A stretch of 64,000 nt of DNA from assembly GCA_021769885.1 (NCBI GenBank), contig JAETSA010000014.1:1-64000 (forward strand), read 5' to 3'. Shown here in pieces: positions 2,590-21,892 of the stretch (position 1 is its first letter; each line of letters opens with the position of its first letter). The notes under the pieces were generated by a model that was given only the letters and a program-made list of their open reading frames with translations, was not told the DNA's origin and did not search any database. A program made the translations under genes and the position numbers. Origin of the DNA: Bacillota bacterium. GTDB taxonomy: Bacteria; Bacillota; Clostridia; Oscillospirales; Acutalibacteraceae.

Positions 2590-2596
2590 GTGCGCT

Positions 2597-5074: not shown

Positions 5075-5161
5075 CATATTTTTAATATGACAACATTCGA
5101 CGAAATACTAAGGAATAAATTGGTGGGATTTTGTTGTAGAGAAAACGAATATGTAATATTA

Positions 5162-5195: not shown

Positions 5196-5200
5196 ACTGA

Positions 5201-5797
5201 TCATGTATTCGTTTTGAATGCTAACCATTTAGCCCCGTAGGTATCAATTGCGAATCTGTTTCCGTGGTTGTTTTCAACCCAATGTTCGTAAACGCGATAA
5301 GTTCCGCGCAGCTGCTCTCTGAGCTCTGCATCGTGAGAGATCGGTTCAAGCCATATCTCATTGTAGTTGCCCAGTTCTTTTTTATTCAGCGGCTTTGTAT
5401 CCGGAAGAGCTGCCTCATAGAATGGAGGCTGTGCTGCGTAGACTGATCCGGCATTGTCAAATGGGACCGTAGACCCATCCAGACGGACCACAACATTTTT
5501 AACTGAGTCTACGAGAACCCAACCAAAGTCAGATGACCATACAGACTTGCCGTGATAGATTTTCAGCAGATCCAGAGAAAGTGGAAGAGATGTTACTGTG
5601 CTTGGATTTCCTCTGCCGAGAAGATAGTCTGTTGATACTTTATACAGATCTGCCATTGCTTCTAAGCTTTCTATGGAAGGAGTTTTCCTTTCAGCTTCCC
5701 AGGCGCCCAGTGTGGATGGAGATACGTCAAGTTTAGCTGCAGCATCCTTAGCCATTAGCTTTTGTGCCTTACGAGCATTTTTATATTGTCGTGCCAT
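5201..5797 (-). CDS. XRE-family transcriptional regulator
   Basis: Residues ~1-60 of this 198-residue protein form a helix-turn-helix of the Cro/CI type (AAAKLDVSPSTLGAWEAERKT, then a LYKVSTDYLLGR ending typical of Firmicute XRE proteins). The C-terminal ~130 residues are not recognised; they contain aromatic-rich segments. ATG 5797 is preceded by GGTGGTGGGG. It is the last gene of a leftward three-gene operon (excisionase-like, AlbA_2/ATPase, XRE), 21 bases after its neighbour. Probably a regulator of the element. Confidence 0.8.
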   Translation of the reverse strand: MARQYKNARKAQKLMAKDAAAKLDVSPSTLGAWEAERKTPSIESLEAMADLYKVSTDYLLGRGNPSTVTSLPLSLDLLKIYHGKSVWSSDFGWVLVDSVKNVVVRLDGSTVPFDNAGSVYAAQPPFYEAALPDTKPLNKKELGNYNEIWLEPISHDAELREQLRGTYRVYEHWVENNHGNRFAIDTYGAKWLAFKTNT

Positions 5798-5818
5798 AGC
5801 ATCCCCACCACCTTTTCT

Positions 5819-7309
5819 TTATTTTAATATGATCCACTTTCCACTTTTGAAAGAACCTTCACGAACTATGAATCCCTTTTCCTTCAAACTTTTAATAGCT
5901 CGCTCTACAGTCGGCTTGGATACACCGATAATCTCGGCAAGTTTTGCTGCCGTTAATGAAGGCATCTTGGAAAGCTCATGGTACACTTTGGCTTCCTTAT
6001 CATTCAAACCGCTGTTTTCACCATCATTTACACCATCATTTACACCATCAGGATGATGGAGAAAATCAGGATGAATAAGAAGGGTGGTGGAGAAAGATAA
6101 GCGTTCCGGATCTGTTTCAAAAATAGGTTTCGGGGAACCGTTTCTTTCAAGAGCATTGAGGATTTTTCGGAAACCGGTATTACGTCCCTCTGTAAGATGC
6201 ATTTCCTTCAGGAATTCGCCAATACGTCTGTTTCTGTATCTACGGTTAAAGACATGATACGTTCTTAACCCTTCGTCTGTGATGGAACGGTCCGCACCTG
6301 GATGACTTACGATTTCAATTCGGTCTGGGAGTACACGTACCTCTATCGGTTCACGCACATCGTAGCCCTTGTGATAAACGGCGTTTGACAGGGCTTCTTC
6401 AATTGCTGCATACGGATAATTGAAGTGGCGTTTCGCCTCAGCAACATTCGGCAGTTTCAAAACGTGCTCTTGGATAACACTGTTCTGGATATACTGTAAT
6501 GCCTCTCTAAGCTGTTGATGCAAAGGTCCCTTGAATGTCTTCTCAATGATCCTATCACCACCGAGGTCATCAGGGAACTGTACTACATCAATCTGTGCGT
6601 ATGGGAAAAAGCGTTCCGGATTAAAGCTGAAAAACATCAGACCGACATTCTTAGGTTTCGTGTATTCCGGCAGCGAGTTGACGATATTCATACTCTTGCA
6701 GAGATCCACGAAATCCATCTTTTTAGAAGCTTCATAAAGAGAGCTTCCAACCTCCTTCAGATAGCTCTGAATTAGGGTGATATTAAGATCAGTAATATCG
6801 GCTTCGTGATTTACACGATCATCAAAAGGCACATTGTTTGCCAATGCAAAAAGATCTCGAATCTCTTCCTGTGTTGGCGAAATTGTACTTGCCATTTTAC
6901 GAATATAGTAAATGCGTTCCTTATTATCCTTGCTCATGGTTTTAGGAGAAGAATAAGGACGGACACTTCCACCAGGAGCCCACACAACGATGAATTTCTT
7001 GCCGACATAGTCTACAACCTCTGTTATAGGCATGTACTCAGGCTGGATAAGTTTGCATTTGTTAAGCATATCCTTTAGATATCCATCAATTTTATCCGGA
7101 GATACTCCCAAAAGCGTGTCCGGCTCACCATTGTCTTTGTTTTTGACGCCGATGACTAAATAGCCGCCGCCCCAGTTGTCAATATCATTTGCGAATGCAC
7201 AAATTGTCTTTAGTGATGCTTCAGGATCCCAGGTTTCCTTAAATTCAATTCTTGCCCACTCAACTACATCTCCGGACAAGAGAGTTTTTATATTAGTTGG
7301 TATTGCCAT
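5819..7309 (-). CDS. AlbA_2/Schlafen-type putative transcriptional regulator with ATPase and winged-helix domains
   Basis: This 496-residue protein has an N-terminal AlbA_2 domain (EFKETWDPEASLKTICAFAND, then GGGYLVIGV), a middle HATPase_c_4-like segment (AIEEALSNAVYHKGYD, with LPDRIEI) and a C-terminal winged helix (TAAKLAEIIGVSKPTVERAI). The linker carries the repeated tripeptide-like run DGVNDGVNDGEN. The family is often annotated RecG-like helicase, but no helicase motifs are present. ATG 7309 with GAGGTG seven bases upstream is preferred over TTG 7315. It overlaps the end of the excisionase-like gene by 17 bases, indicating translational coupling. Confidence 0.85.
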   Translation of the reverse strand: MAIPTNIKTLLSGDVVEWARIEFKETWDPEASLKTICAFANDIDNWGGGYLVIGVKNKDNGEPDTLLGVSPDKIDGYLKDMLNKCKLIQPEYMPITEVVDYVGKKFIVVWAPGGSVRPYSSPKTMSKDNKERIYYIRKMASTISPTQEEIRDLFALANNVPFDDRVNHEADITDLNITLIQSYLKEVGSSLYEASKKMDFVDLCKSMNIVNSLPEYTKPKNVGLMFFSFNPERFFPYAQIDVVQFPDDLGGDRIIEKTFKGPLHQQLREALQYIQNSVIQEHVLKLPNVAEAKRHFNYPYAAIEEALSNAVYHKGYDVREPIEVRVLPDRIEIVSHPGADRSITDEGLRTYHVFNRRYRNRRIGEFLKEMHLTEGRNTGFRKILNALERNGSPKPIFETDPERLSFSTTLLIHPDFLHHPDGVNDGVNDGENSGLNDKEAKVYHELSKMPSLTAAKLAEIIGVSKPTVERAIKSLKEKGFIVREGSFKSGKWIILK

Positions 7310-7511
7310 CGTCAATCACCTCATTATTAGACTTCATATACTTTCCGGTTTTAATTCGAGCATCTGCAGGTTTGTCTGCGTCTGCCGGAATAAGCCATGT
7401 GTTACCGACCTTTTTGACCCCGGGTATTCGTCCTTCGGAGCAAAGGGTAGCTACACGTCTATGTGACAGATTCCATTTTTCACCGGCTTCAATTGTAGAG
7501 ATGTAATCCAC
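7293..7511 (-). CDS. Small MerR/excisionase-like HTH_17 DNA-binding protein
   Basis: The 72-residue protein shows the compact winged-helix pattern EKWNLSHRRVATLCSEGRIPGV followed by the wing VGNTWLIPADADKP, typical of HTH_17 excisionase-like proteins on mobile elements. I choose GTG 7511 because AAAGGAGTG lies at the right distance; ATG 7529 would overlap that site. First gene of the leftward operon. It may act as a recombination directionality factor or as an operon regulator; the sequence alone does not decide. Confidence 0.75.
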   Translation of the reverse strand: MDYISTIEAGEKWNLSHRRVATLCSEGRIPGVKKVGNTWLIPADADKPADARIKTGKYMKSNNEVIDDGNTN

Positions 7512-7642
7512 TGCAAACACTCCTTTCAAAATCTCTATTTAATATTATATTCATTTTGAGGAATAATATCAAGACCTTTTCACGAATTCACTTTTATAAG
7601 CACTCTGATTTTGCACGTCAGACTGGGTTAGATATAATGACA

Positions 7643-7736
7643 ATTATGTTTAACCCACGAAATCAGCACGATTGGAAATGATATTTGAGTTAAACATAAT
7701 CAACATTGTTTTCCACCAAACCGAGTTAAACATAAT
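7643..7736. repeat. Three copies of GTTAAACATAAT upstream of the tyrosine recombinase
   Basis: A 12-base motif occurs at 7643-7654 (reverse orientation), 7689-7700 and 7725-7736 (forward; the last two each preceded by GA and 36 bases apart). The motif sits in the divergent control region (7530-7792) between the excisionase-like operon and the recombinase. It could be a set of binding sites for the XRE, the excisionase-like protein or the recombinase. No further gene is seen in this gap. Confidence 0.6.
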
Positions 7737-7792
7737 TTTTTCGTTGTATCCTCGCTTCCTCCTTCGTGTAATAAATGTAGGAGGCGATAAAA

Positions 7793-8626
7793 ATGTTAAC
7801 TGAATTCCAAGAGTATTTAAGAAGCATCGGCAAGTCACAGAATACAGCACTGGGATACTGTGATAAGGTTAGACTCTACTTCAAATGGTGTCTGGATAGT
7901 TTCGGAAGCGAACCGCAGCAGCTGTACCGAGCAAATGTGCTTGATTACATTTCATATATGAAGACGATTAAGCGATACAGTCCTAAGTCTGTAAATAACC
8001 ATCTGTCATCCCTGAGAAGTTTCAATGAGTACCTGATCTTCTCCGGTCGTCAGACAGAACTGGCGATCGTAAAGAATGACTTTATGAAAATCCAAACCCA
8101 GTATGCCAATCCCTGCACTGTCGAGCAGAAGGATGTAGAGGCATTCAGGCAGCGTCTGCTTGAGGGTGGCAATAAGAGAGACTTCGCCATTGTGACTCTC
8201 TATACTTATACCGGCATTCGTAGATCGGAGTGTGTTAATCTTCGACTTGACCAGGTAGATCTAATCGCAAAAGAAATCTACGTTGTCGGTAAAGGAGATA
8301 AACAAAGGACAGTTTATTTGAACGATAAAACCGTACATGCAATCCGCGAGTACCTGAAGGTGAGAAACTCAGACAGTCCGTATTTGTTTGTGAGCCGCCA
8401 GTCCGAGAAGATGGCAGCATCCCGTATCAATCAGATCTTTAACCAGTATTCTGATGTCATCACACCAAAGATGCTAAGACATTATTTTTGTAGCCACGCA
8501 CTCGATACCGGTGAATATAAGATCCACGAGGTTGCAAATCAAGCCGGTCATAGTAATGTCCAAACCACTCTGATTTATAGTAACCCGTCGGCAAGGCAGA
8601 TGAAGGAGAAGGCAAACAAACTATGA
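7793..8626 (+). CDS. XerC-like tyrosine recombinase
   Basis: The 277-residue protein has an N-terminal SAM-like core-binding domain (1-~95) and a catalytic domain with Arg in TGIRRSEC, Lys in VGKGDKQR, the LRHYF box, His in GHSNVQTT and the nucleophile Tyr in LIYSN. The first His of the usual HxLRH box is replaced by Lys (KMLRH). ATG 7793 follows TAGGAGGCG. Its stop overlaps the sortase start (ATGA). Because serine recombinases sit at the element end, this enzyme may serve inversion, multimer resolution or an older integration event rather than the present insertion. Confidence 0.9.
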   Translation: MLTEFQEYLRSIGKSQNTALGYCDKVRLYFKWCLDSFGSEPQQLYRANVLDYISYMKTIKRYSPKSVNNHLSSLRSFNEYLIFSGRQTELAIVKNDFMKIQTQYANPCTVEQKDVEAFRQRLLEGGNKRDFAIVTLYTYTGIRRSECVNLRLDQVDLIAKEIYVVGKGDKQRTVYLNDKTVHAIREYLKVRNSDSPYLFVSRQSEKMAASRINQIFNQYSDVITPKMLRHYFCSHALDTGEYKIHEVANQAGHSNVQTTLIYSNPSARQMKEKANKL

Positions 8627-9399
8627 GAAAATTTATTTCTGTCATACTGATTTTGATTTTTATATTTATTGCCGCCTTCGCAGGATATCAGATTTTCCGG
8701 GAGCATACAGAGAGGCAGGAAAGTGCTGAGTCCTATGCTGACCTGGAAGAGCTCATCTCTTTTCCCGAAGTGCCTCCTTCCGAAGAGACGGATGAGACAT
8801 TTTCATCTGAGTCTGGAGAAACCGAGAAAGTACCTGTAGGGCCCGCAGTAGATTTTGACGCACTTCTTGAAATCAATGAAGATTGTGTCGCGTGGATTTA
8901 TATTGAAGATACAGCAATCAATTATCCCGTTGTACAAGGCGCTGATAACAGTTATTACCTTAAACACCTATTTGACCGCAAGTGGAACAGTGCAGGATGC
9001 ATCTTTCTGGATTCCAGAGTGGCTTCGGATATGTCAAACCGACATAGCATCATCTATGGACATCACATGAAAAACGGGACAATGTTCTCGGGACTGACCC
9101 AGTATAAGAAGCAGCAGTATTATGATGAGCACCCGGAAGCTCTTCTTATCACTCCGAATGCAACCTACCGGATAGAGTTTTTTGCCGGCTATGTTGCCAG
9201 TGTTGAGGATTCTGCCTGGAAGATTGGATTTGAGTCTGACGAAGAATTTGAAACTTGGATTAAGGAAGCAAAGCAGCGCTCGTGGTTTGAAAGCCCCCTT
9301 TCTCCCGCAGTCACAGATAGGATTCTTACATTGTCTACCTGCAGCTATGAATTCGATAACGCGAGATTTGTTTTACACGCTATCATCATTGAAGCATAG
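8623..9399 (+). CDS. srtB: Class B sortase
   Basis: This 258-residue membrane-anchored transpeptidase has an N-terminal helix (~5-22), a Glu/Ser-rich linker to ~80 and a sortase fold with catalytic His in IIYGHHM, Cys in TLSTCSYE and Arg in DNARFVLHA. WIYIEDTAINYPVVQG is the SrtB-type start of the domain. The start overlaps the recombinase stop, so the two are translated together. No LPxTG/NPxTG-like substrate is visible in this window; substrates are expected further left in the element, where cell-surface conjugation proteins would be encoded (inference). Confidence 0.92.
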   Translation: MRKFISVILILIFIFIAAFAGYQIFREHTERQESAESYADLEELISFPEVPPSEETDETFSSESGETEKVPVGPAVDFDALLEINEDCVAWIYIEDTAINYPVVQGADNSYYLKHLFDRKWNSAGCIFLDSRVASDMSNRHSIIYGHHMKNGTMFSGLTQYKKQQYYDEHPEALLITPNATYRIEFFAGYVASVEDSAWKIGFESDEEFETWIKEAKQRSWFESPLSPAVTDRILTLSTCSYEFDNARFVLHAIIIEA

Positions 9400-9421
9400 A
9401 CTTGTAAATTCATCAAACATC

Positions 9422-9450
9422 TTGCATTTTGCGGACGCTTCTGCTATAAT
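9422..9450 (+). promoter_or_regulatory. Sigma-A-type promoter upstream of hairpin cluster
   Basis: TTGCAT at 9422-9427 and a perfect TATAAT at 9445-9450 are separated by 17 bases. Confidence 0.8.
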
Positions 9451-9507
9451 ATCTATGTTAGTATCAGATATTGCCCATCGGCAGTAACAGTTATCAGAGT
9501 TTTCACA

Positions 9508-9539
9508 GTGCCTGAGAGATTATCTTTCGGGCACTTTTT
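9508..9539 (+). terminator. Terminator-like hairpin 1
   Basis: GTGCCTGA pairs with TCGGGCAC (one wobble pair) and is followed by TTTTTGTTTT. It lies only ~50 bases after the predicted start of transcription, so the transcript would be a short RNA unless it is read through. Confidence 0.7.
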
Positions 9540-9585
9540 GTTTTCTTATGCTTTCTTCCAGTAAGAAGCACAAGTATCGGAAACT

Positions 9586-9608
9586 GAAGGGGCTATCCCT
9601 TCTTTTTA
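9586..9608 (+). terminator. Terminator-like hairpin 2
   Basis: GAAGGG pairs with CCCTTC across a five-base loop and is followed by TTTTTA. Confidence 0.6.
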
Positions 9609-9640
9609 CAATTGAATCATGGCCGGTTATGGCAACAAGA

Positions 9641-9684
9641 GCACTCATTGAATGCAAGCAATTGCAATCATTGGGTGCTTTTTT
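9641..9684 (+). terminator. Terminator-like hairpin 3
   Basis: A long stem (14 of 17 pairs between 9641-9657 and 9662-9678) is followed by a run of six T. A fourth, smaller hairpin (AAAGGTT/AACCTTT) follows at about 9709-9727. The 385-base gap between sortase and the next gene is filled by these structures. Confidence 0.7.
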
Positions 9685-9784
9685 ATATAGATCGGAGCCG
9701 AAAGGTTCCCCCAACCTTTTTTCTCGGGGAGCCTCAGGGCTTGCCGTTACTATATAACAAAACAGAAAAGGAGTGTATCTCGCT

Positions 9785-10042
9785 ATGAGAAAATTATCAT
9801 TCATTTTAACCGTCGCCATGATCATTATGGCGGTAATCATTATCCCCGTTGGGATATCCAACATTGTACTGGCCCTGCAGCTTGGACTCCTCTTTGAGTG
9901 TGTCAGCAGTCTGTTCTTTCTGTGCCTTTTCATTGCCTTCTGCCTGTTTGAGGTAAGAGAGTTTATCAAGGAGTATTCCTGGTATTACGAGGAGGCGCCG
10001 GTCGAAGGAATGCACGATGCAGACGACGAAGGACCGTTTTAA
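9785..10042 (+). CDS. Small two-helix membrane protein of the element
   Basis: The 85-residue product has two hydrophobic helices (about residues 5-25 and 30-55) and an acidic C-terminal tail. ATG 9785 is preceded by AAAAGGAG; the upstream GTG 9773 sits directly on that site and is unlikely. It is followed 12 bases later by the DUF6061-like gene. Function unknown; proteins of this size and layout are common companions in conjugative-element accessory operons. Confidence 0.7.
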   Translation: MRKLSFILTVAMIIMAVIIIPVGISNIVLALQLGLLFECVSSLFFLCLFIAFCLFEVREFIKEYSWYYEEAPVEGMHDADDEGPF

Positions 10043-10054
10043 GGAGGTGTCGGC

Positions 10055-10471
10055 ATGCGATTGTATCTGACAGCCGAAACATCCATACCGGATTTGTACA
10101 TCGATTATATCGAGGTGCTTTTGAAATCCGGAGAAGAAGTTTCGCTAAACTGGGATTATAGCGATATCGAACGTACACCTTCTGGCTTTTCGGCCAGGTA
10201 TAAGGGCGTGTACTTTGATGAAGATTATGCCAATGGTCGGATTGAAGAACTACGTGACATGAAGATCACCGACATAGGCGTATATTATGAGTCAAAGTGC
10301 GAACAGGATATCAAAATCACGATTTTAAGTACATACTACAATAACCCGGAAATTATATATCTGCGAGAAATTGCTGAGAGAATTGATAAATATGATGTTT
10401 CTCAACGCATTCTTGTGTGTGAAAGTTTCGGTAGTTACTTGGATGCCATGGAACGTTTTGCAAAGAAGTAA
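10055..10471 (+). CDS. DUF6061-like element protein
   Basis: The 138-residue protein begins MRLYLTAETSIPDLYIDYIE and contains GEEVSLNWDYSDIERT and SARYKGVYFDEDYANGRI, a pattern I associate with the DUF6061 family of Firmicute conjugative elements. The C-terminal ~50 residues are less characteristic. ATG 10055 follows AAGGAGGTG. Two terminators follow the gene. Function unknown. Confidence 0.7.
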   Translation: MRLYLTAETSIPDLYIDYIEVLLKSGEEVSLNWDYSDIERTPSGFSARYKGVYFDEDYANGRIEELRDMKITDIGVYYESKCEQDIKITILSTYYNNPEIIYLREIAERIDKYDVSQRILVCESFGSYLDAMERFAKK

Positions 10472-10540
10472 ATCGGAGAAGCATATGATGCGGAGAATTA
10501 GCTAACAAGAGAAAAAATAATAACAGATGTAGATTAAAAG

Positions 10541-10565
10541 AAACCGGCATTTGTCCGCCGGTTTT
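10541..10565 (+). terminator. Terminator after DUF6061-like gene
   Basis: AAACCGGC pairs with GCCGGTTT and leads into TTTT. Confidence 0.75.
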
Positions 10566-10581
10566 ATATGCACGCCTAATC

Positions 10582-10622
10582 AAGCGGCCTTGCCATATTT
10601 ATTTATGGTTGGGCCGCTTTTT
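10582..10622 (+). terminator. Second terminator before the sigma-like gene leader
   Basis: AAGCGGCC pairs with GGCCGCTT, with further pairing across CCATA/TATGG, followed by TTTTTGTTT. Confidence 0.8.
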
Positions 10623-10635
10623 GTTTGTCTTACGG

Positions 10636-10660
10636 GAAGGAGGTGATTCCAATGTTCTGA
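10636..10660 (+). promoter_or_regulatory. Strong Shine-Dalgarno followed by a two-codon open frame (Met-Phe-stop)
   Basis: GAAGGAGGTGA at 10636-10645 is followed at normal spacing by ATG TTC TGA (10652-10660). A hairpin (CATGCCAC/GTGGCATG, about 10705-10723) follows and then the ribosome binding site of the sigma-like gene. The layout suggests a leader in which ribosome occupancy could affect expression. This is inference from arrangement only. Confidence 0.45.
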
Positions 10661-10769
10661 TTGCTGTGGACCCAACTGTACGAACACAGAATATAATTTC
10701 ACGGCATGCCACTGTGGCATGTTGTAAATATAGTTTTGCTCGGTGGTATGCCCCAAAGGAGGCATATGT

Positions 10770-11183
10770 TTGGACTACCGACAAAACGCTGATCGAGATG
10801 AGCTCCGCGCAAGATTTACTGCGTGGCTCGATACGTTGTTAAAACGTGCTAAGCTCAATTACTTAGAGCGAGAATGTGAGGAACCTCACGAATCGTTAGA
10901 TTCGCTTGATGAGGATCAGTTGCCGGCGACTGAGGACGCATATATGCAGACACTATTCTCTGATGATCCTTTTGGGTTTACAGAAGAGCGTCTTGCAAAA
11001 GCATTTTCTGAGCTGCCGCTGATGAGGCAACAGATACTTAAGTTGCTTTTCGTTGATGAAATGAAGCCGCGGGATATCGCCAAAATACTGAATTGTTCAG
11101 CGCAGTATGTTTCAAACCAGAAGCAAAAAGGATTGAAGTATTTGCGTAAGACAATCGTGGAAGGTGGTGATATTGATGGATAA
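10770..11183 (+). CDS. RNA polymerase sigma-70-like factor of the element
   Basis: The 137-residue protein has a C-terminal region-4-like helix-turn-helix (LPLMRQQILKLLFVDEMKPRDIAKILNCSAQYVSNQ split over ~85-125). The N-terminal part (RARFTAWLDTLLKRAKLNYL) matches the small sigma-like proteins of Tn916/Tn1549-type elements. TTG 10770 is chosen because AAAGGAGG sits seven bases upstream; GTG 10743 precedes that site. It overlaps the next small gene by eight bases. Probably a positive regulator of element transfer genes (family-based inference). Confidence 0.8.
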   Translation: MDYRQNADRDELRARFTAWLDTLLKRAKLNYLERECEEPHESLDSLDEDQLPATEDAYMQTLFSDDPFGFTEERLAKAFSELPLMRQQILKLLFVDEMKPRDIAKILNCSAQYVSNQKQKGLKYLRKTIVEGGDIDG

Positions 11184-11367
11184 AACCGAATTTCAGATTA
11201 TATTACAAGGCGCTATTGCAGGCAATCATAATGACTTTGAGAAATTGATTACCCTTTATGATCCTCTGATAGACAAGCATTGTTTTATAAACGGAAAGCG
11301 TGATGACGATCTGAAGCAGTATCTTTTGATGCATCTGGCTCTCAATATCAACAAGTTCATAATATAA
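11176..11367 (+). CDS. Helix-turn-helix (HTH_16-type) conjugative-element protein
   Basis: The 63-residue protein (MDKTEFQIILQGAIAGN, then NDFEKLITLYDPLID and a helix ending LALNINKFI) matches the small helix-turn-helix protein that usually accompanies the sigma-like factor in Tn916-type elements. ATG 11176 follows GAAGGTGGTG and overlaps the end of the sigma-like gene, so the two are translationally coupled. It probably acts with that factor. Confidence 0.75.
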   Translation: MDKTEFQIILQGAIAGNHNDFEKLITLYDPLIDKHCFINGKRDDDLKQYLLMHLALNINKFII

Positions 11368-11373
11368 CGACAA

Positions 11374-11402
11374 GGCTCCGGACTGCACATTCGGAGCTTT
11401 TT
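11374..11402 (+). terminator. Terminator after the sigma-like operon
   Basis: GGCTCCG pairs with CGGAGC and is followed by TTTTT. Confidence 0.75.
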
Positions 11403-11439
11403 CTATAATTTTTTTCGGGAAGTGATTATATTTTGAGAT

Positions 11440-11760
11440 TTTTTTGTGTTTTTACCTTATGAAAGCATCCCTATGTTTTATCGCACCTTGAAAAACGAAT
11501 AGTCCAGAACCGGTACTTTCCATTTTCGCTGAGCGCCTATCCGTCTGCCTGGCAAGCAGAACCAAGAGTAATAATATGCGGGTGGCTCCCGCATTTCGCC
11601 AAGACGCGAATTTGGGACAATGATACTTCCGTAATTCGCGGTCCGGCCACAATGAAGGCGGGAAGGTGAAACTCCTATGGACCTGTTCGCTGCAGGCGCC
11701 GGGTGGACGTTAAAATCAAATGCTCGTTGAATAGACGAGCACCTTAATGGCAATAATTTC
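11440..11760 (+). ncRNA. Candidate structured non-coding RNA or long structured leader
   Basis: This ~320-base stretch has no plausible gene but many hairpins: TCTGC/GCAGA at 11544-11560, GCGGG/CCCGC at 11579-11593, a perfect 8-bp stem CGCGAATT (11605-11612) with AATTCGCG (11633-11640), CCTG/CAGG near 11680, and a perfect 7-bp stem TGCTCGT (11721-11727) with ACGAGCA (11735-11741). It is GC-richer than its flanks, begins after a terminator and ends just before the DUF6870-like gene. I do not recognise the family. It could be a free RNA or a cis-acting leader. Confidence 0.55.
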
Positions 11761-11783
11761 TATATAAAAGAAAGGAGTATCCA

Positions 11784-12041
11784 ATGTATAGTTACGATAA
11801 GAATGATGTCGCTACGCTTAAGAGTGTGGATATAAGAAGCGTTGATAAAAGTAGCTTAGTTGATCTGAACTCCGTTCACATAGACGAATCAAAACCGGTG
11901 CAGGAACGAGTTCTGAGCTTTTTACAACAGATTCAGAACCCCTATTGTTTTCGCATCGGTGATGTGGCCGTAAAAGTAAATTATAAGTCAGACGGACCAT
12001 CATTCCAGCAGAATTTCGAGGATCTTCTGCGAACAATGTAA
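11784..12041 (+). CDS. DUF6870-like small protein preceding the recombinases
   Basis: The 85-residue protein has VDIRSVDKSSLVDLNSVHID and the near-invariant NPYCFRIGDVAVKV, the pattern of DUF6870 proteins found next to large serine recombinases in Clostridia. ATG 11784 follows AAAGGAG. Its conserved place directly before the recombinases suggests a role in recombination or its control, but no function is established to my knowledge. Confidence 0.7.
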   Translation: MYSYDKNDVATLKSVDIRSVDKSSLVDLNSVHIDESKPVQERVLSFLQQIQNPYCFRIGDVAVKVNYKSDGPSFQQNFEDLLRTM

Positions 12042-12094
12042 ACGGTAAGTTATGGAAATGTCCGAAAAGTATAGATTTTTTGAAAGTTTTATGC

Positions 12095-12100
12095 TATACT
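12095..12100 (+). promoter_or_regulatory. Extended -10 promoter for the recombinase operon
   Basis: TATACT preceded by TGC (extended -10) lies about 80 bases before the first recombinase; no good -35 is seen. Confidence 0.5.
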
Positions 12101-12178
12101 CATACACGGACTAAAAATCATACTCACCCTTGGAATGTTTGTTGGTTGTACTGACAATCCATCCAAAGGAGTGAGCTT

Positions 12179-13831
12179 ATGGAAAATACAAACATTATTC
12201 AGTATAATGCTGCTGCTTATGTGCGCCTGTCCAAAGAGGACTTGATCAGTATTAGTGGCGCAAGAACTGAGAGCAACAGTATTTCCAATCAAAAACAGCT
12301 GATTCTGGACTTCGTAAAAGACAAAACTGACATAAAAATAGTGTCGATTAGAGAAGACGATGGATATACAGGGACAGATTATGACCGTCCTGATTTCCAG
12401 CGCATGATGGATGACATCCGCGCCGGGATCGTGAATTGCGTCATTGTAAAAGATCTGTCTCGTTTTGGCAGAGAGTATATCAATGCCGGAAAGTATATCG
12501 ATCGCCTTTTTCCGTATTATGGGGTTCGTTTAATTTCCATAAACGATGGAATTGACACCATCACCAGAAGCAGCTCTGATGATTTTAACATCATGGTGAA
12601 GAACCTAATGAATGACAACTACTGCCGAGATATTTCTATTAAAATCCGCAGTCAGTTGCAGGTAAAACGTAAAAACGGCGAATTTATCGGTGCTTTTGCG
12701 CCATACGGTTATGAGAAATCCGAAGAGGATAAAAATAAGCTTGTTATCGATGTTTATGCCGCAGAAGTTGTGCGGGACATATTCCGTTGGAAACTGGAAG
12801 GTCTCAACCCGGACACCATAGCTCGAAAACTGAACGAGCAAGGTGTTTTGTCACCGATGGAATATAAGAAAAGCCGAGGATTATCCTATAAAACCTCTTT
12901 TAAGACCAAGAGTAAGGCACAGTGGGTGCCTATGGCGGTACGACGCATCTTAACAAACCCAGTCTATGTAGGAACTCTTGTGCAAGGGATCCGAACAAGG
13001 CCCAATTACAAAATAAAAACAGTAATCGTTAATGAAGAAGAAAAATGGGCGATTTTTGAAAATGCCCACGAAGCAATCATCAAGCCAAGAATATTTCTGC
13101 TTGTACAACGGCTTCTTGAATTGGATACCCGAACTTCACCGAATGAAGAAGGGGTATTTCCGTTGGCAGGTTTGCTATACTGTAGCGACTGCAAAGGTCC
13201 TATGATACGGAAAACACAGACTGCAAGCGGAAAGAAATTCTATTATTATGTTTGTGGTCATCACAAGAAAACCGGCAAGTGTTCAACACACCGTATCTCT
13301 AAAAATCAGTTGGAAGATACCGTGCTGAAACTTCTGCAGGAGCATATCCGTTTACTAATGGAACTGGATACATGCCTGCAGACTATTAGAAGTGCCCCTA
13401 TGCGCCGCCTTAGTATAAGGAAGGCCGAGGAACGGTTACTTGCGGTTGAGGCAGAAATTGACCGATATCGTAGGCTGAAAATGTCGGCATATGAGGATAT
13501 GAAGGATGGCATTCTTTCAAAAGACGATTATCTTGATATTAAAGAGCAGTACGAAACTCGAATTGCTGATGCACAATTAGCCGAAGAACAGGTGCGTCGC
13601 GAAATCAATCTGTACCTTGAAAACGGGAATGCTCCACAGCAGTGGATCCAAGATTTCCTTGAATACCGCAACATCCAAAGCTTAACACGAAGTGTGGCAG
13701 TGGAATGCATTGAGAGTATTGTTATCTATGAAGATAAGCGAATCGAATTGACGTTTACTCATATGCAAGATTATCAAGCACTCGTTTCACAAGTACAGGA
13801 TTATTATCTTGAACAGAAAGGAGCGAGTTAA
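12179..13831 (+). CDS. Large serine recombinase 1
   Basis: This 550-residue protein has the resolvase N-terminal domain with the nucleophile Ser in YVRLSKED, the SNSISNQKQLI helix, IVKDLSRFGRE and the recombinase domain (KTSFKTKSKAQW, VRRILTNPVYVG). A zinc ribbon follows (CSDCKGPM, then CGHHKKTGKC) and a coiled-coil segment (~400-490). It cuts and rejoins DNA through a phosphoserine link. ATG 12179 follows AAAGGAGTGAG. Its stop codon directly abuts the start of recombinase 2. All expected motifs are intact. Confidence 0.93.
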   Translation: MENTNIIQYNAAAYVRLSKEDLISISGARTESNSISNQKQLILDFVKDKTDIKIVSIREDDGYTGTDYDRPDFQRMMDDIRAGIVNCVIVKDLSRFGREYINAGKYIDRLFPYYGVRLISINDGIDTITRSSSDDFNIMVKNLMNDNYCRDISIKIRSQLQVKRKNGEFIGAFAPYGYEKSEEDKNKLVIDVYAAEVVRDIFRWKLEGLNPDTIARKLNEQGVLSPMEYKKSRGLSYKTSFKTKSKAQWVPMAVRRILTNPVYVGTLVQGIRTRPNYKIKTVIVNEEEKWAIFENAHEAIIKPRIFLLVQRLLELDTRTSPNEEGVFPLAGLLYCSDCKGPMIRKTQTASGKKFYYYVCGHHKKTGKCSTHRISKNQLEDTVLKLLQEHIRLLMELDTCLQTIRSAPMRRLSIRKAEERLLAVEAEIDRYRRLKMSAYEDMKDGILSKDDYLDIKEQYETRIADAQLAEEQVRREINLYLENGNAPQQWIQDFLEYRNIQSLTRSVAVECIESIVIYEDKRIELTFTHMQDYQALVSQVQDYYLEQKGAS

Positions 13832-15532
13832 ATGGCACGAAAAAGCCGAAAAACCACTGTTGCAGAACCAGCGGTGATAAAGGCGGTCGATAAGGTCTAC
13901 CGCGCAGGATTATATGCACGAATTTCTGTAGAAACAGAAAGGAAGCGTGAGGCCGACACGATCGGTAATCAGCTTCAATTACTGAAGGATTATGTTTCTG
14001 AGCATTCGGACCTTACCGTGTTCGACATTTACAGTGATGATGATATATCCGGTACCGATTTTATCCGACCGGAATTTTCACGAATGATGAATGATCTACG
14101 TGACGGAAAGATTGATTGTATAATCGTCAAGGACCTTTCTCGTTTGGGAAGAAACTATCTTGAGTCTGGCGAATATATCGAAATGGTATTTCCGTTTTTT
14201 AGGTGTAGGTTTATTTCGGTTACAGACCGTTTCGATACCAAGTACCAACAAGCGGATATCTCTGTACAGTTGAAGAATATGGCTAATGAGATGTATGCGA
14301 AAGATATCTCAAGGAAGATTTGTTCCACTATGCGTACTATTCAGGACCAAGGCAAATTTGCCGGCAGCCGTGCGCCATATGGTTATCGACTGGATCCCGC
14401 AGACAAGCATCATCTTATTATTGATGAAGAGACGGCACCAATTGTAAAACAGCTCTTCGAATTGCTTGCAGAAGGTAATACGGTTCATTATGTTGCGACT
14501 ACGATGAACGCAAGAGGTATCCCATCTCCGGGGCGCTTATTGTACGAAAGAGGAATTGCCACTACCGATCACTTTAAGAACTCTAAGTGGTATATGCAAA
14601 CTGTACGGCGTATTCTTCAGGATGAAATATATCTCGGGTGGATGGTATCTGGTAAGTTCCGTTCCACATACCACTCTACTGGTAAAAAAGGATCTCAACC
14701 GGTGCCGCGTGAAGAATGGATTGTTACTAAAGGCACACATGAGCCTATTGTTACTGAAGAGCTTTTTAATAAGGTTCAGGAATACTTCGTGCGCATGAAG
14801 GAAGAACACGGTCAAACCGCTGTCTATAACTCTAAAAGCAAAAAAGCCAGCATTTTTAAGGGGCATCTTCGCTGCGGCGAGTGCGGACAGGCTATGTTCC
14901 TTAGAAACAAACACAGTCATGGCAAAGTAACTGCTTGGTATTATTGTGCTTTGCACGAAAATTACAATTCTTCATATTGCGTAAAAAAAGCGGTTAAGAA
15001 GCAGGATGTCGAAGATATTGCTTTGAAACTGATCCGCACGCAAATAAAACTGTTTACCGATGCCAGAGAAATGATTATTGCTCTAAATAAAAAGGAAAGC
15101 AGTAAAACAAAACATCGTATTTACAGCGATCAAATCCGTAACGTAAAGAAACAAATTGAGAAGTATATGAGTCTGAAGGCGTCTTTATATGAGGATTTTG
15201 CAAATGGAGTGCTCAGCCAAAGTGATTATATCAGTATGGGACAAGAATATGCCCAGAAAGCTGATGAACTCCGAATCTTTCTTGCCGAACTGGAAAAGGA
15301 AGCACAAAAATATAGTCAAACGTATGCTATGAACGGTTCGTGGGCGCAAATCATCGAGCAATACCAAAATGCTGAAACTCTTACAGAGGAAATGATTGAT
15401 GCGTTCATAGATGAGATGATTCTGTATAACAATGGACATGTTGAGGTCAAATTCAGATTTAAGGATGAGCTGGATGAGGTAATACATCTTGCTGCAATCC
15501 GCCAGAGGGAGGTTGAACGGTATGCTATGTAA
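13832..15532 (+). CDS. Large serine recombinase 2
   Basis: This 566-residue paralogue has the nucleophile Ser in YARISVETE, IVKDLSRLGRN, the recombinase domain (KWYMQTVRRILQDEIYLG) and a zinc ribbon (CGECGQAM, then YYCALHENYNSSYC). A Lys-rich tail replaces part of the coiled coil seen in its neighbour. The start codon lies directly after the stop of recombinase 1, with GAAAGGAGCG upstream. It overlaps recombinase 3 by 11 bases. Such adjacent sets often act together in excision and integration (family knowledge). Confidence 0.93.
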   Translation: MARKSRKTTVAEPAVIKAVDKVYRAGLYARISVETERKREADTIGNQLQLLKDYVSEHSDLTVFDIYSDDDISGTDFIRPEFSRMMNDLRDGKIDCIIVKDLSRLGRNYLESGEYIEMVFPFFRCRFISVTDRFDTKYQQADISVQLKNMANEMYAKDISRKICSTMRTIQDQGKFAGSRAPYGYRLDPADKHHLIIDEETAPIVKQLFELLAEGNTVHYVATTMNARGIPSPGRLLYERGIATTDHFKNSKWYMQTVRRILQDEIYLGWMVSGKFRSTYHSTGKKGSQPVPREEWIVTKGTHEPIVTEELFNKVQEYFVRMKEEHGQTAVYNSKSKKASIFKGHLRCGECGQAMFLRNKHSHGKVTAWYYCALHENYNSSYCVKKAVKKQDVEDIALKLIRTQIKLFTDAREMIIALNKKESSKTKHRIYSDQIRNVKKQIEKYMSLKASLYEDFANGVLSQSDYISMGQEYAQKADELRIFLAELEKEAQKYSQTYAMNGSWAQIIEQYQNAETLTEEMIDAFIDEMILYNNGHVEVKFRFKDELDEVIHLAAIRQREVERYAM

Positions 15533-17129
15533 AAAGAAGCTGGCGTTCTATATTCGTCTGTCCTTGGAGGACTTTGACCTGAAGACATCGGATAAAACCG
15601 AAAGTAACAGTGTCTCGAACCAGAGAAAACTCTTGCAGGATTACTACGATTCGCATCCAGAACTGAAGGAATATGAAATCATTGAATTCTGTGATGATGG
15701 TTATACCGGAACCAATTTTGACCGTCCCAGATTTATGGCAATGATGGAGTTAGCACGCCAAAAGGAGATCCATGCCATTATTGTAAAAGACTTATCTCGT
15801 TTCGGTCGTGACTATCTTGAGGTGGGCGCCTATTTAGAGTTGATTCTGCCCTTGTTTGGCACACGATTCATATCTGTGAATGATAACTTCGACAGTAACA
15901 ACTATATCGGCACTACCGGCGGTCTTGAGCTGGCCTTGCGTAATCTGATCAATGGGTTGTATAGCAAGGATTTGTCTGTAAAAATCAAAAGTGCAAATAA
16001 GACTCGAAGCCGTCGCGGTGAATACTGGGGAGGAACCGCATTCTATGGATACCGATTGGATCCCAAGAATAAGCATAAAATCATCGTTGACACAGATGTG
16101 GCCAGTGTTATAGTTCGTATCTTTGATGAATGTATCGAGGGTAAAAGCTCATCGCAAACGGCCAGGGGGTTAAATGATGAAGGTATACCTTCACCGGCTG
16201 CATACAAGCAGATAACCGGGGATTTCTATAATGGACGTGTTGCTGATGAAGTTCCGATTTGGACAGCATCAACAGTTCTTAGAATCTTGAAGGATGAACG
16301 CTATACTGGAAAAATGGTTTCTAATAAGAGAGAAACCGTTGGTGTAAGTACAGGAAAGATGCGTCCATTGCCAAAAGAAGAATGGATTATCGTAGATGGT
16401 ACACACGAAGCAATAATTCCGCAGGCCAAGTTTGACGAAGCAGCTACCTCCAGAGTCGGAAGAGTAAAAACTATCAATAAGAATACTGCCGGAAACAGAG
16501 CTGATAATCTGTTCGTTTGCGGACACTGCGGACGGAAACTTCAGAAATCATATGGGATCATTACGCATCTGTTTTGTATGAAAGCAGGTGTGTCCTCTGA
16601 GAGCCTCTGTGCTTCGATACACGAACCGATTGAAGATCTGAAAGCCAAAGTCCTTTTGGTATCAAAAACGCTTGCCAAAATGCTTATGGAGAAATCTGTA
16701 CAGGTTAAAGCTACGACTAATCAAGAGATACCAAGAACAGAAAAAAAGATTGCAGAAGCCAAAAGGTCTCTGCAAAGACTACAAAACGGCAAGCTTGATC
16801 TGTATGAAGAATACAGGCAAGGAAAAATTACAAGAGAGAAATTCATATCTATTCAAGAAAGCAGACAAGCGGAAATGGATTCGCTGCAAGATGAACTGGC
16901 AAAACTTGAACAGTATCTTGCTAAAATAAAATCCGGACGAGAAAAAATAGATGAACTGACAGCTGATGCAAAAGACATTTGGGCGTTGTCAGAGTACCGC
17001 CCGGAAGTGATCCGCAAAATTGTTGAAAGGGTTCGTGTCTATGAGAACGGACGGATTGAGATTGACTTGCTTAATAATGATGACTTTATAACTGAGATAT
17101 TGGAGTCGGCAGTCAAAATGGCAGGATGA
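15522..17129 (+). CDS. Large serine recombinase 3
   Basis: The 535-residue protein has the nucleophile Ser in FYIRLSLED, ESNSVSNQRKLL, IVKDLSRFGRD, a recombinase domain (STVLRILKDERYTG) and a reduced zinc ribbon (CGHCGRKL, then LFCMKAG and LC). A long coiled coil (~380-470) follows. ATG 15522 with AGAGGGAGG upstream is chosen over the longer frame starting inside recombinase 2. It is the last gene of the element; only ~100 bases separate its stop from the resumed spoVAC frame. Confidence 0.93.
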   Translation: MLCKKKLAFYIRLSLEDFDLKTSDKTESNSVSNQRKLLQDYYDSHPELKEYEIIEFCDDGYTGTNFDRPRFMAMMELARQKEIHAIIVKDLSRFGRDYLEVGAYLELILPLFGTRFISVNDNFDSNNYIGTTGGLELALRNLINGLYSKDLSVKIKSANKTRSRRGEYWGGTAFYGYRLDPKNKHKIIVDTDVASVIVRIFDECIEGKSSSQTARGLNDEGIPSPAAYKQITGDFYNGRVADEVPIWTASTVLRILKDERYTGKMVSNKRETVGVSTGKMRPLPKEEWIIVDGTHEAIIPQAKFDEAATSRVGRVKTINKNTAGNRADNLFVCGHCGRKLQKSYGIITHLFCMKAGVSSESLCASIHEPIEDLKAKVLLVSKTLAKMLMEKSVQVKATTNQEIPRTEKKIAEAKRSLQRLQNGKLDLYEEYRQGKITREKFISIQESRQAEMDSLQDELAKLEQYLAKIKSGREKIDELTADAKDIWALSEYRPEVIRKIVERVRVYENGRIEIDLLNNDDFITEILESAVKMAG

Positions 17130-17165
17130 ATTTGGGAGTTGCCTTAAAAAGTGAAAATTCGACTG

Positions 17166-17197
17166 ATTTCGGTCTAAATCATAAAAAAATCCGAAAT
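17166..17197. other. Hairpin near the right element end
   Basis: ATTTCGG (17166-17172) pairs perfectly with CCGAAAT (17191-17197) and is followed by TTTTTG. It may end the recombinase transcript or be part of the recombinase binding region. Confidence 0.5.
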
Positions 17198-17210
17198 TTT
17201 TGCAAAAAAT

Positions 17211-17232
17211 TAATGGGTCCTACTTGACCACA
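17211..17232. other. Predicted right attachment junction in spoVAC
   Basis: The spoVAC frame can be followed back to the codon for Gln at 17231; upstream the frame runs into element sequence with a stop at 17225-17227. The junction carries GGTC (17216-17219), six bases, then GACC (17226-17229), the small dyad expected around a serine-recombinase crossover. The exact crossover bases cannot be set without the left end or an empty site. Confidence 0.6.
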
Positions 17233-17356
17233 AGCAGAAGGGCGCATACTCGGTACAGGCGCAAAGCTGTTTACGATTGCAGGACCTGTCATTGCCTACG
17301 GCTGTTCCGCCGCTGTGATTTACGGACTGATTATCTATATTTTCGGACTGTATTAA
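17231..17356 (+). pseudogene. spoVAC: 3' fragment of spoVAC (interrupted by the element)
   Basis: The last 41 codons read QAEGRILGTGAKLFTIAG and continue to YIFGLY before TAA. They align in register with the C-terminal end of Bacillus SpoVAC (KSEGLVLGVATNMFKLAG as I recall it). SpoVAC is a membrane subunit of the spore dipicolinate channel. The 5' part of the gene must lie left of the window. spoVAD follows 17 bases later, the standard order. Unless the element can be excised, the gene is broken. Confidence 0.85.
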
Positions 17357-17373
17357 AAAGGGGGGGCTGATTT

Positions 17374-18402
17374 ATGGCGATTCGGCAAGGCAGATACACA
17401 CTGAATTTGACAACGCGCCCGTCTATTCTCGGCAACGCGGCGGTGGTCGGCAAAACCGAGGGCGAGGGACCGCTTTCGGCGGAGTTTGACCACGTATATA
17501 CAGATGACACGCTCGGGGAAATCTCCTTTGAAAAGGCAGAAAGCACCTTACAGCGGGAAGCCATCATCCGTGCACTGGACAAGGCGGGCAAAACACCTGC
17601 GGATATCGACTATGTACTCGCGGGCGATTTATTGAACCAATGCATCGGCACATCGTTCGGTATTCGCGAATTGGGGATTCCGTTTTTGGGTCTGTACGGC
17701 GCGTGCTCGACGATGGCACTCTCGTTAGGACTTGCAAGTGTGTTGGTGGATGCAAAGGCGGCGAATTTTGCGGTCGCGTCCACGTCTTCGCACTTTGCTT
17801 CGGCAGAACGGCAATTCCGACAGCCGTTGGAATACGGCGGACAGCGTCCGCAGACAGCCCAGCGCACTGCCACGGCGGCAGGCGCATCGGTCGTCGGCTG
17901 CAGTGACCCGAACAAGCCGTGTGTCGAAGCGGTCACGTTCGGCAAAATTATGGATCTCGGCATTAAAGACGCAAATAATATGGGCGCGGCAATGGCACCC
18001 GCCGCCGCAGACACCATTGCAAACTTTTTGACAGATACCGCAACGGCACCTGCGGATTACGATTTGATTCTGACCGGCGACTTAGGACTTGTCGGTTCGC
18101 AGCTGTTAAAGGAGCTGTTGCAAAAAGATCACAATATCGACATCAGCCGCAACCATACAGACTGCGGACTGCTTCTGTATGATATTGAGCGGCAGGATGT
18201 GCACGCAGGCGGCTCCGGCTGCGGCTGTGCAGGGTCGGTGTTCAATTCGTATATTCTGCGCCGTCTCTCTGAGGGCGAGCTTAAAAAGGTTCTGCTGGTC
18301 GCTACGGGTGCACTGATGTCGCCGACCTCGACATTACAGGGCGAAAGCATTCCGTCCGTCGCACACGCGGTGTTGGTTGCGAAGCCACAGAATGTTTCGT
18401 AA
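17374..18402 (+). CDS. spoVAD: Stage V sporulation protein AD
   Basis: This 342-residue protein has the thiolase-like fold of SpoVAD: YVLAGDLLNQCIGTSFG, LYGACSTMALSL, ASTSSHFASAERQFR, LILTGDLGLVGSQLL and the Gly/Cys segment AGGSGCGCAGSVF. SpoVAD binds dipicolinic acid and helps move it into the forespore through SpoVAC/SpoVAE-type membrane partners (established for Bacillus). ATG 17374 follows a run of G that serves as ribosome binding site. It lies directly downstream of the interrupted spoVAC, so its own transcription may come from within the element or depend on excision. Confidence 0.95.
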   Translation: MAIRQGRYTLNLTTRPSILGNAAVVGKTEGEGPLSAEFDHVYTDDTLGEISFEKAESTLQREAIIRALDKAGKTPADIDYVLAGDLLNQCIGTSFGIRELGIPFLGLYGACSTMALSLGLASVLVDAKAANFAVASTSSHFASAERQFRQPLEYGGQRPQTAQRTATAAGASVVGCSDPNKPCVEAVTFGKIMDLGIKDANNMGAAMAPAAADTIANFLTDTATAPADYDLILTGDLGLVGSQLLKELLQKDHNIDISRNHTDCGLLLYDIERQDVHAGGSGCGCAGSVFNSYILRRLSEGELKKVLLVATGALMSPTSTLQGESIPSVAHAVLVAKPQNVS

Positions 18403-20521: not shown

Positions 20522-21400
20522 TCAAATTCCTGTGCCGTCAAATTTCGGAATATAACAGGTGTCCGCCGCTGTGCGCTCCTGCATAAAGCCGTTTCGAAAG
20601 CCCAAAGCCCAAAACTCGTCTACGACCCTTTGATATTCGGCGGTTGTTAAGCGGCGGTTCAGCTCCTTTTGCGCATACGTTCTGCTACAGGGGGTATACT
20701 GGCTCATCAGGCTTAAGTACGTCTTTTCACCGAGATTTTCCCGAATCCAGCGAAGAATATTTTTGGAATCCTCTGTGTGCTTCGGCAAAACCAAATGCCG
20801 CACAAGAAGCCCCGACTGCATAATGCCGTCTGCATCGAAAACATCTTCAACCTGCGCACGCATTTCTAAAATTGCCGCGCGCGCAATTTCGGGATAATCC
20901 GCCGCCGCTGAACAGCTTTTTGCAAGCTCGGCATCAAAATATTTGAAATCGGGCAGATAAATATCGACAAGTCCGCGAAGACTGCGCAAAGATTCCACGG
21001 AATCATACCCGCCGCTGTTGTATACCACGGGGATTTTCGGCTTGTATTCGCGTAAAGCTTCCGCTAAAAAGGGTGTAAAGTGCGTCGGATTTACAAGATT
21101 GATATTGTGTGCGCCCTTAGCCTCCAATTCCTGCATAATTTCAATAAACCGTGCACGGCTTACAGGCTTGCCCGTTTCGCCGCGGCTGATTTCAAAATTT
21201 TGGCAAAACACGCACCGCAAAGAACAGCCCGAAAAGAAAATTGCGCCCGAGCCGTTTTTTCCGCTGATGGGCGGTTCTTCCCAAAAATGCAGAGCGGCAC
21301 GCGCCAGCACAGGATTATAGGGCATTTTGCAAAATCCCGTCGATGCGGCATTTTCTGTTCTTTGGGCGCCGCATCGGCGCGGACAGGCTGTACAAATCAT
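20522..21400 (-). CDS. Radical SAM protein, PflA-related (PflX-like)
   Basis: This 292-residue protein has the cluster motif CSLRCVFCQN and an N-terminal Cys set (CTACPRRCGAQ, then GFCKMP). The remaining sequence (GKNGSGAIFFSGC, INLVNPTHFTP, VYNSGGYDS, DIYLPDFKY) matches the uncharacterised PflX/AmmeMemoRadiSam-like group of putative glycyl-radical or protein-modifying enzymes. No dedicated partner is adjacent. ATG 21400 opens with MICTACPRRC, the usual start of the family. Substrate unknown. Confidence 0.85.
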   Translation of the reverse strand: MICTACPRRCGAQRTENAASTGFCKMPYNPVLARAALHFWEEPPISGKNGSGAIFFSGCSLRCVFCQNFEISRGETGKPVSRARFIEIMQELEAKGAHNINLVNPTHFTPFLAEALREYKPKIPVVYNSGGYDSVESLRSLRGLVDIYLPDFKYFDAELAKSCSAAADYPEIARAAILEMRAQVEDVFDADGIMQSGLLVRHLVLPKHTEDSKNILRWIRENLGEKTYLSLMSQYTPCSRTYAQKELNRRLTTAEYQRVVDEFWALGFRNGFMQERTAADTCYIPKFDGTGI

Positions 21401-21414
21401 GGTGGCTCCGTTTC

Positions 21415-21892
21415 TGTTTGTAGGGAACGACCTTAAGTGTCGTTCCGTAAAATCTGCACGAAATAAATTTGATTCGAAAATTGTAGGGGTCGCTGTTCTC
21501 GCCTGCCGGCTCGGTCGCGCTTCTAAGCTACGCTTAGAGGTATCCGCTGGACACCCGCACCCTCAGCGACCCGCGGGCGAACGCAGTTCGCCCCTACGTG
21601 GGTTGTGTATCACCGTTCGGTTGTGTAAAATCCGACCATGCTCGGGGCGCCGAGTCGTCGCCCCCTACGAATGTAGGGAACGACCTTAAGTGTCGTTCCG
21701 TAAAATTTATCAAACTTCTGCGGGCGCTTCGTGAAGCGCCCCTACAAGATTTTGCATCGTCGTTAGATAGTTCAAAATCGAACAACGGGCGGCTGAAGGC
21801 AGCCGCCCCTACGAGATAGCGTATTCCCATTTAGTTTACACAAAATCCAAACCGTGTTCGGGCGGGCACGGAGACCCGCCCCTACGAAAAGT
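21415..21892. repeat. Hairpin-module array B, with a 69-bp core insert
   Basis: The gap between the radical SAM gene and the ABC ATPase is filled by hairpins: GGAACGAC/GTCGTTCC at 21424-21446 and again near 21676, a module with outer arms GGGTCGCT (21487-21494) and AGCGACCC (21565-21572) that encloses the 69-bp core at 21495-21563, then GCGAACGCAGTTCGC, GGGGCG/CGCCCC, GGCGCTTCGTGAAGCGCC and GGCGGCTGAAGGCAGCCGCC. Most end in CCCTAC. No gene seen. Confidence 0.8.

Follow-up and report, generated by a model that had tools for sequence, protein, structure and literature searches.

A single codon of spoVAC occupied by serine recombinase-bearing elements and by cassette arrays in Clostridia

INTRODUCTION

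How does a bacterium come to carry only the last codons of spoVAC, a gene of the SpoVA channel of spores, at the edge of a run of recombinase genes? The question is raised by a stretch of 64 000 nt (hereafter the window) from an Acutalibacteraceae bacterium (assembly GCA_021769885.1, contig JAETSA010000014.1), which corresponds to bases 1–64000 of contig C2 in the 38-contig, 97.59% complete draft genome called here G000 (G, C and L numbers denote genomes, contigs and loci). A preliminary description, made from the letters of the window, had proposed that a mobile element lies inside spoVAC, and our analysis supports that proposal. The gene is split at codon 109, the same or related elements occur at this codon in other genera and families, and in other Clostridia the codon is followed by tandem arrays of small cassettes. 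Neither the attachment codon shared by several families nor the arrays had been foreseen, and the arrays are a larger find than the split gene itself.

Interruption of sporulation genes by mobile DNA is a known phenomenon, and the passages available from PMC10747680 and PMC4430133 name skin in sigK, SPbeta in spsM, vfbin in spoVFB, gin in gerE and yin in yabG. SpoVA genes figure in the available part of PMC6907783 as cargo of gut elements only, and the titles, abstract openings and passages of the open-access literature that we searched hold no account of insertions into spoVAC or of single-gene arrays behind it.

RESULTS

The two parts of spoVAC and the empty site

The right-hand junction lies in the window, with the following features:

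1–17236, plus strand: right-hand part of the inserted element; the contig begins inside it, and its left end is on contig C18
17217–17236, plus strand: right-end half-site of the element, GTCCTACTTGACCACAAGCA
17237–17238, plus strand: GA crossover core, within the Glu codon 109 of spoVAC
17237–17356, plus strand: 3' part of spoVAC (PF03862), the last 39 residues of SpoVAC and the stop, EGRILGTGAKLFTIAGPVIAYGCSAAVIYGLIIYIFGLY
17374–18402, plus strand: intact spoVAD-like open reading frame (ORF) of 342 aa

The spoVAC fragment begins right after the half-site, 107 nt past the stop of the third serine recombinase gene (15489–17129), in agreement with the distance of about 100 bases first proposed, and passes the family cut-off of PF03862 (27.8 bits, E 4.4e-6). 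Its length, previously put at 41 codons, has to be corrected to 39 codons plus the stop, the exact boundary being 17236/17237. The ORF that follows, which we take to be spoVAD from its sequence and position, is open throughout, as had been stated, and the same ORF follows spoVAC in the sister species G005. Within G000, PF03862 was found at three places: the window, contig C18 and contig C3. The 5' part of the gene (profile positions 2–94), which the preliminary description had suggested looking for, is located on the minus strand of C18 (431–712), where that contig ends, and adjoins the element's left end; C18 reads as SpoVAC up to ..ANSIVSPAMEFQS, beyond which homology is lost. Once joined, the two parts encode a full-length SpoVAC. 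The match on C3 is the sole full-length one in the genome, and it was considered as a second intact spoVAC and ruled out, being only 46% identical to the SpoVAC query; it looks like a second SpoVA paralogue. Hence, an intact spoVAC, whose presence elsewhere would have spoken against a disrupted gene, is absent from the assembly.

The empty site was found in G005, as the comparison with related genomes proposed at the outset had envisaged. The flanks from C18 and from the window match a single G005 contig at 80–85% identity and meet within 8 bases; both flanks are collinear with it, while bases 1–16000 of the window gave no blastn match (E 1e-10) in the 19-kb empty-site region. Between the two species the 5' part of spoVAC differs by 12.5 nonsynonymous and 45.5 synonymous changes, and the 3' part by 1 and 15, respectively. 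Throughout the genus, a full-length SpoVAC-type profile match was present in 36 of 39 genomes, a count read from the E-values, as the second SpoVA paralogue also matches the profile. The exceptions are G000, G027, which has the 3' part alone behind a cassette-like end, and G023. In the latter, two contig ends (C13 and C15, loci L036 and L037) carry the two spoVAC parts, each broken off precisely at the GA core; such breaks would be expected where occupied and empty sites are mixed.

The core and the recurrence of the element

When the 161-nt left end was searched for in the order (394 genomes), nine genomes matched, the strong matches besides G000 being G585, G515, G452 and G685, in three further families. 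Together with G114, from another genus, the same or a related left end is joined to the 5' part of spoVAC at codon 109 in six genomes from four families. Compared along 114 nt, the left ends of four hosts match that of G000 at 112–113 positions (98–99%); that of G685 has diverged, with 59 of 114 ungapped matches and 88% identity over 76 nt. At the other side, an identical half-site followed by host-specific spoVAC 3' ends marks the right ends of G585, G515 and G452 and that of the IMG/VR contig 3300023371_003229, and this contig carries a copy of recombinase 3 that is 99% identical and sits before the spoVAC of another host. A 57% relative of recombinase 3 precedes a spoVAC 3' part and a spoVAD-like ORF in G174, where the half-site is diverged. 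Searches for the 5' part in G174 and for the 3' part in G685 found neither.

These joints define the crossover point. In G114 the host sequence is divergent before GATGAGCGTG and agrees with the element after it, and in five to six hosts the sequence outside GA is that of the host and the sequence inside that of the element. Since host and element sequence switch at this position at both left and right ends across hosts, the core is GA; an initial assignment to CA was replaced because G114 shares the left end from GATGAG onward. The predicted attachment site of the element (attP) is the 42-bp dyad GTCCTACTTGACCACAAGCA-GA-TGAGCGTGATATAATAGGAC (GTCCTA..GA..TAGGAC), identical in G000, G585, G515 and G452, and in all four the flanks joined in silico encode full-length SpoVAC, so that precise excision would be expected to restore the reading frame.

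Among the remaining left-end matches, G527, G583 and G598 were weak and uninformative, and that of G069 is not at spoVAC. In this genome (L260, G069:C68:18346-21376), at position 1500, a left-end-like sequence, TATAATAGGAC..GGTCGGAAAGCC, follows MKATGIVRRID, presumably the start of an AbrB/SpoVT-like gene, with GA at the same distance, and perhaps represents a related element with another target. Relatives of recombinase 3 within the genus reach 34% when full length and 53% as short N-terminal pieces. The recombinase of G207 (38%) was discarded as a spoVAC-site relative, there being no spoVAC after it in the sequence seen. Contig C46 of G114 was likewise rejected as a right end of the large element: the DNA upstream of its 3' copy resembles ordinary chromosome, hence a cassette joint.

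Cassette arrays behind an intact spoVAC

In other Clostridia (loci L075–L091, L120–L131 and L135–L245), tandem cassettes are found at the same codon. Each unit combines a spoVAC 3'-end copy with, in most cases, a single reverse ORF and with a terminal half-site of the element type. A first screen, with SpoVAC as query, covered 28 family genomes chosen from 250 for extra or weak matches, and in 11 of them an intact spoVAC has one or two further 3'-end copies behind it, on its own contig and strand, mostly with a single reverse-strand ORF between successive copies. One such case, G029, had been considered as a mixture of occupied and empty sites, but its intact gene plus displaced 3' copy fits a cassette array. 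The pattern GTCCTANNTTGACANNAGC occurs at 28 sites in 21 of 398 family genomes (read backwards, in 3 of 398). After 25 of these sites tblastn detected a spoVAC 3' end and after one (G347) the end is visibly truncated, while no 3' end follows the sites in G146 and G360, perhaps chance matches. A stricter pattern, scanned over the species-genome collection, retrieved 111 contig stretches from metagenome-assembled genomes (MAGs) titled Clostridia, Clostridiales, Oscillospiraceae, Ruminococcus, Lachnospiraceae, Bacillota or, once, 'bacterium'. In the first 80 of these loci, 90 of 98 pattern sites precede a spoVAC 3' end by tblastn, the other eight being shortened or altered ends as judged by eye.

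Parsing of the 111 loci, from which 29 tblastn positions lacking both an intact spoVAC and a half-site within 6 mismatches were dropped, yielded 164 half-site junctions, 48 intact spoVAC junctions, at all of which the gene is whole, and 101 complete cassettes in 66 loci. Cassettes have a median length of 956 bp (range 450–5510, n = 101); their longest ORF is reverse in 85, a single ORF is present in 78, and their proteins form 65 families. GA stands at the core of 160 of the 164 junctions, although the pattern itself demanded GA for most sites and the figure is thus not independent. The 20-mer half-site of the element itself is found at 21 of the 164, three of which represent right ends of the large element. 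Of 161 junctions, 87 have within their final 100 nt a promoter-like stretch, A[TC]TATA-N16-19-TG[TC]AAA (TTTACA..TATAAT-like on the ORF strand), as against a mean of 0.12 after shuffling and none in 153 control stretches. The displaced spoVAC copies keep the frame, with a stop 114–129 nt past the core in 139 of 162, and copies within arrays gave a pN/pS (nonsynonymous over synonymous differences per site) of 0.22 over 129 of 148 pairs, 19 having been dropped beforehand.

Recombinases 1–3 as queries (E 1e-5; ccr itself was not used as a query) produced a single match in the 111 loci, in L232, where the large element of G515 has its right end, and no recombinase appears among the 25 of 70 Pfam families listed for the 65 cassette proteins. 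Cargo families among these listed matches (25 of 70) include glycosidases, MerR, Fic, YitT, LGT and DMP19, and PADLOC matches among the cassettes are few. In G452, two cassettes are preceded by the large element.

Sharing of cassettes between hosts

Comparison of cassettes in different loci gave 42 pairs at least 75% alike, 25 of them at least 85%, although pairs do not amount to independent events. Sharing extends across genera, as illustrated by G087 and G217 (99.3% over 874 bp) and by G213 and G306 (94% over 483 bp). Eight pairs were aligned base by base. At the right, identity ends at the half-site and core; at the left, it starts within the final 30–45 nt of the spoVAC copy. Over the initial 90 nt of that copy, median identities across the 25 pairs were just 0.70–0.77, while within some arrays (G217, G287) the copies are identical or almost identical along their first 40–60 nt. 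As the copies are host-like near the core and diverged between sharing hosts, the spoVAC copy belongs to the host and not to the travelling unit. Each unit has acquired its host copy, whether by duplication on capture or by later conversion, perhaps started at the core. In three of the eight pairs (19/58, 63/97 and 12/51) the promoter end differs while the bodies are 94–99.8% identical; these exchanged promoter ends point to homologous recombination between conserved flanks.

Parts of the element

Upstream of the junction, the following features of the element were annotated in the window:

7793–8626, plus strand: tyrosine recombinase (PF00589, E 4.2e-27)
10743–11183, plus strand: small sigma-like regulator (PF08281, E 5.8e-7)
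11164–11367, plus strand: HTH_16 protein (PF12645, E 2.8e-11)
11784–12041, plus strand: DUF6870 protein (PF21757, E 8.8e-30)
12179–13831, plus strand: large serine recombinase 1 (PF00239, PF07508, PF13408)
13832–15532, plus strand: large serine recombinase 2 (PF00239, PF07508, PF13408)
15489–17129, plus strand: large serine recombinase 3 (PF00239, PF07508), adjoining the right end

Inside the element (7793–9399), the tyrosine recombinase is followed by a same-strand ORF that appears sortase-like by eye. Behind the related left end of G685 we found a type IV coupling protein (PF02534, E 6.5e-51) and a TraG-type ATPase, suggesting that the element is of a conjugative type; for the G000 element, conjugation would follow from this relative.

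DISCUSSION

Our findings are best explained, and with good probability, by a model in which codon 109 of spoVAC serves as an attachment site on the chromosome, centred on GA. In G000, an element with three large serine recombinases has integrated there, and by the joining of its 42-bp dyad to spoVAC the gene has been split in two; in other genera and families this codon is occupied by the same element or by relatives, of which at least one has conjugation genes. One of the element recombinases, presumably, joins attP to the GA site, and the reversal of this reaction would restore full-length spoVAC. In other Clostridia, small single-gene cassettes occupy the same codon, each behind a spoVAC 3'-end copy that keeps spoVAC whole. 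Since these cassettes carry the same half-site and no detected recombinase, movement in trans by the recombinases of the element is the most likely route, with the cassettes as non-autonomous units in which the 3' half of spoVAC is the partner of the half-site; homologous recombination between conserved flanks probably also swaps their cargo. A broader proposal, to which we give an even chance, is that spoVAC anchors a hitherto undescribed cassette system of Clostridia, an analogue of integrons built on serine recombinase half-sites. Here, conjugative elements that split spoVAC would supply recombinases and half-sites, and promoter-bearing single-gene cassettes would be captured behind spoVAC, each with a fresh 120-nt copy of the host 3' end, so that the gene survives.

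Several observations weigh against the attachment-site model. The spoVAC 3' copies do not travel with the cassettes, whereas plain integration of a circle made of half-site and spoVAC 3' end predicts that they should. Relatives of recombinase 3 at E 1e-100 are confined, among the 398 family genomes, to G174 and G207 besides G000, and the cassette pattern occurs in 21 of the same 398, so that helper and cassettes seldom co-occur. With one 22-mer of the left half-site as query and viral contigs as the material searched, no circular or excised form was matched. The interior of the G000 element was not located, the TraG-type ATPase of G685 giving in G000 just a 22% match elsewhere, so that its conjugation is a prediction from the G685 relative. 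Finally, all the evidence comes from assemblies, mostly MAGs.

The element might also be a plain knockout, spoVAC being silent in growing cells and so a harmless landing site, with carriers that sporulate without SpoVAC or seldom do so. No full-length spoVAC was found in any of the seven element-bearing genomes, and C. difficile spoVAC mutants, according to the abstract of PMC4959285, still form spores, which lack dipicolinate, germinate normally and are heat sensitive. Against this, neither spoVAC part of G000 has decayed, and the arrays keep the gene whole at all 48 intact junctions parsed, which shows that a working spoVAC has value for these bacteria. We regard a simple knockout as conceivable, though on the doubtful side.

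A similarly tentative standing is given to the spread of cassettes by homologous recombination alone, in which the conserved flanks, namely the spoVAC end on one side and the promoter plus half-site on the other, would swap the ORFs between them and the half-site would be a relic. The left-hand start of shared identity within the copy, the three pairs with exchanged promoter ends and the near-identical copies within the G217 and G287 arrays are all in keeping with such swapping. Nevertheless, the identity of the eight aligned pairs stops at the half-site and core, as site-specific exchange predicts, and homology by itself leaves the origin of new units and the upkeep of 20 nt plus GA unexplained. 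We retain movement in trans as the most likely route for the cassettes, to which homologous exchange would be added.

Less likely is a developmental switch of the skin kind, by which the element would be excised on schedule during sporulation so that SpoVAC is made. The spoVA genes act in the forespore; therefore, under such a switch, the element would be missing from the chromosome of the spore, or be kept there as a circle able to re-integrate when the spore germinates. The joined gene is full length in four hosts, the two G000 parts are free of decay relative to G005, and SpoIVA is kept in eight of nine genomes tested, the only one without it being G585 (62% complete). In addition, both G023 contigs end at the core, although a mixture within a MAG can be strain variation. 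The failure to see an excised form in the 22-mer search of viral contigs tells against a switch too, and the left ends are so alike in several hosts that the insertions may be too young for decay. The absence of decay in the halves would suit a switch as well as recent insertion, and the latter is favoured by left ends that are nearly identical from family to family.

It is most improbable that the C18 and C2 ends derive from different organisms through an assembly or binning artefact, for even though the genome is a 38-contig draft in which their joint was not assembled, both ends match one collinear G005 locus and the same end-to-spoVAC joints recur in independent assemblies, on which grounds a chimera was rejected.

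Integrons appear to be the nearest analogue in behaviour to the spoVAC cassettes. Integrons hold tandem, mostly single-gene cassettes with a shared end and varied cargo, shared between species, and the spoVAC arrays resemble them in all these respects. Unlike integrons, they have half-sites that match a serine recombinase element, most of their ORFs are reverse with a promoter-like end, and the array is anchored in a spore gene. The tyrosine recombinase of the window matched nothing in the 111 loci at E 1e-5, and no integron integrase was met in the searches made, none of which used IntI itself as a query.

As with the skin type of element, the G000 element lies in and splits a sporulation gene, encodes its own recombinases (three large serine and one tyrosine), and its precise removal restores the frame in silico in four hosts. 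It differs in that its target is a SpoVA gene, a single GA core takes the place of a long repeat, at least four families are involved and excision is here a prediction. Tn5397, in the passages available from PMC4430133, has a serine recombinase, a central GA in its target and Fic-encoding DNA as target. The spoVAC element shares with it (TndX) a large serine recombinase (PF00239, PF07508) and the central GA at the joints, and its G685 relative has conjugation genes; on the other hand, it has three tandem serine recombinases and its target is spoVAC for every strong left-end match, in six genomes. The staphylococcal and enterococcal cassette chromosomes (SCC/ECC), as far as described in the accessible part of PMC6222049, likewise use large serine recombinases and insert towards the 3' end of a conserved gene (rlmH). 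Half-sites with dyad symmetry are a further common feature. The spoVAC cassettes, by contrast, are mostly single genes of ∼1 kb devoid of recombinase genes, with a 120-nt coding copy per unit, and their sites sit at spoVAC and not at rlmH, a spoVAC 3' end following 25 of the 28 sites in the family and, within the first 80 loci, 90 of 98.

Taken together, these data extend the list of sporulation genes interrupted by mobile DNA to a gene of the SpoVA channel, and bring an element of conjugative type into it. As one codon is targeted in several families, target and recombinase become directly testable, and the compact half-site of 20 nt plus GA defined by the arrays can be assayed. The arrays also point to another route by which bacteria collect single-gene cassettes, in the little-studied Clostridia of the gut, and pose the question of how each unit gains a copy of the 3' end of its own host's spoVAC.

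Elsewhere in this genome, short similar peptides (VGNDLKCRSVK, S.TFVG/PTSVGA) were noted by eye in overlapping frames at 21327–21830 of the window and at 3988–4247 of L004, which suggests an interspersed DNA repeat.

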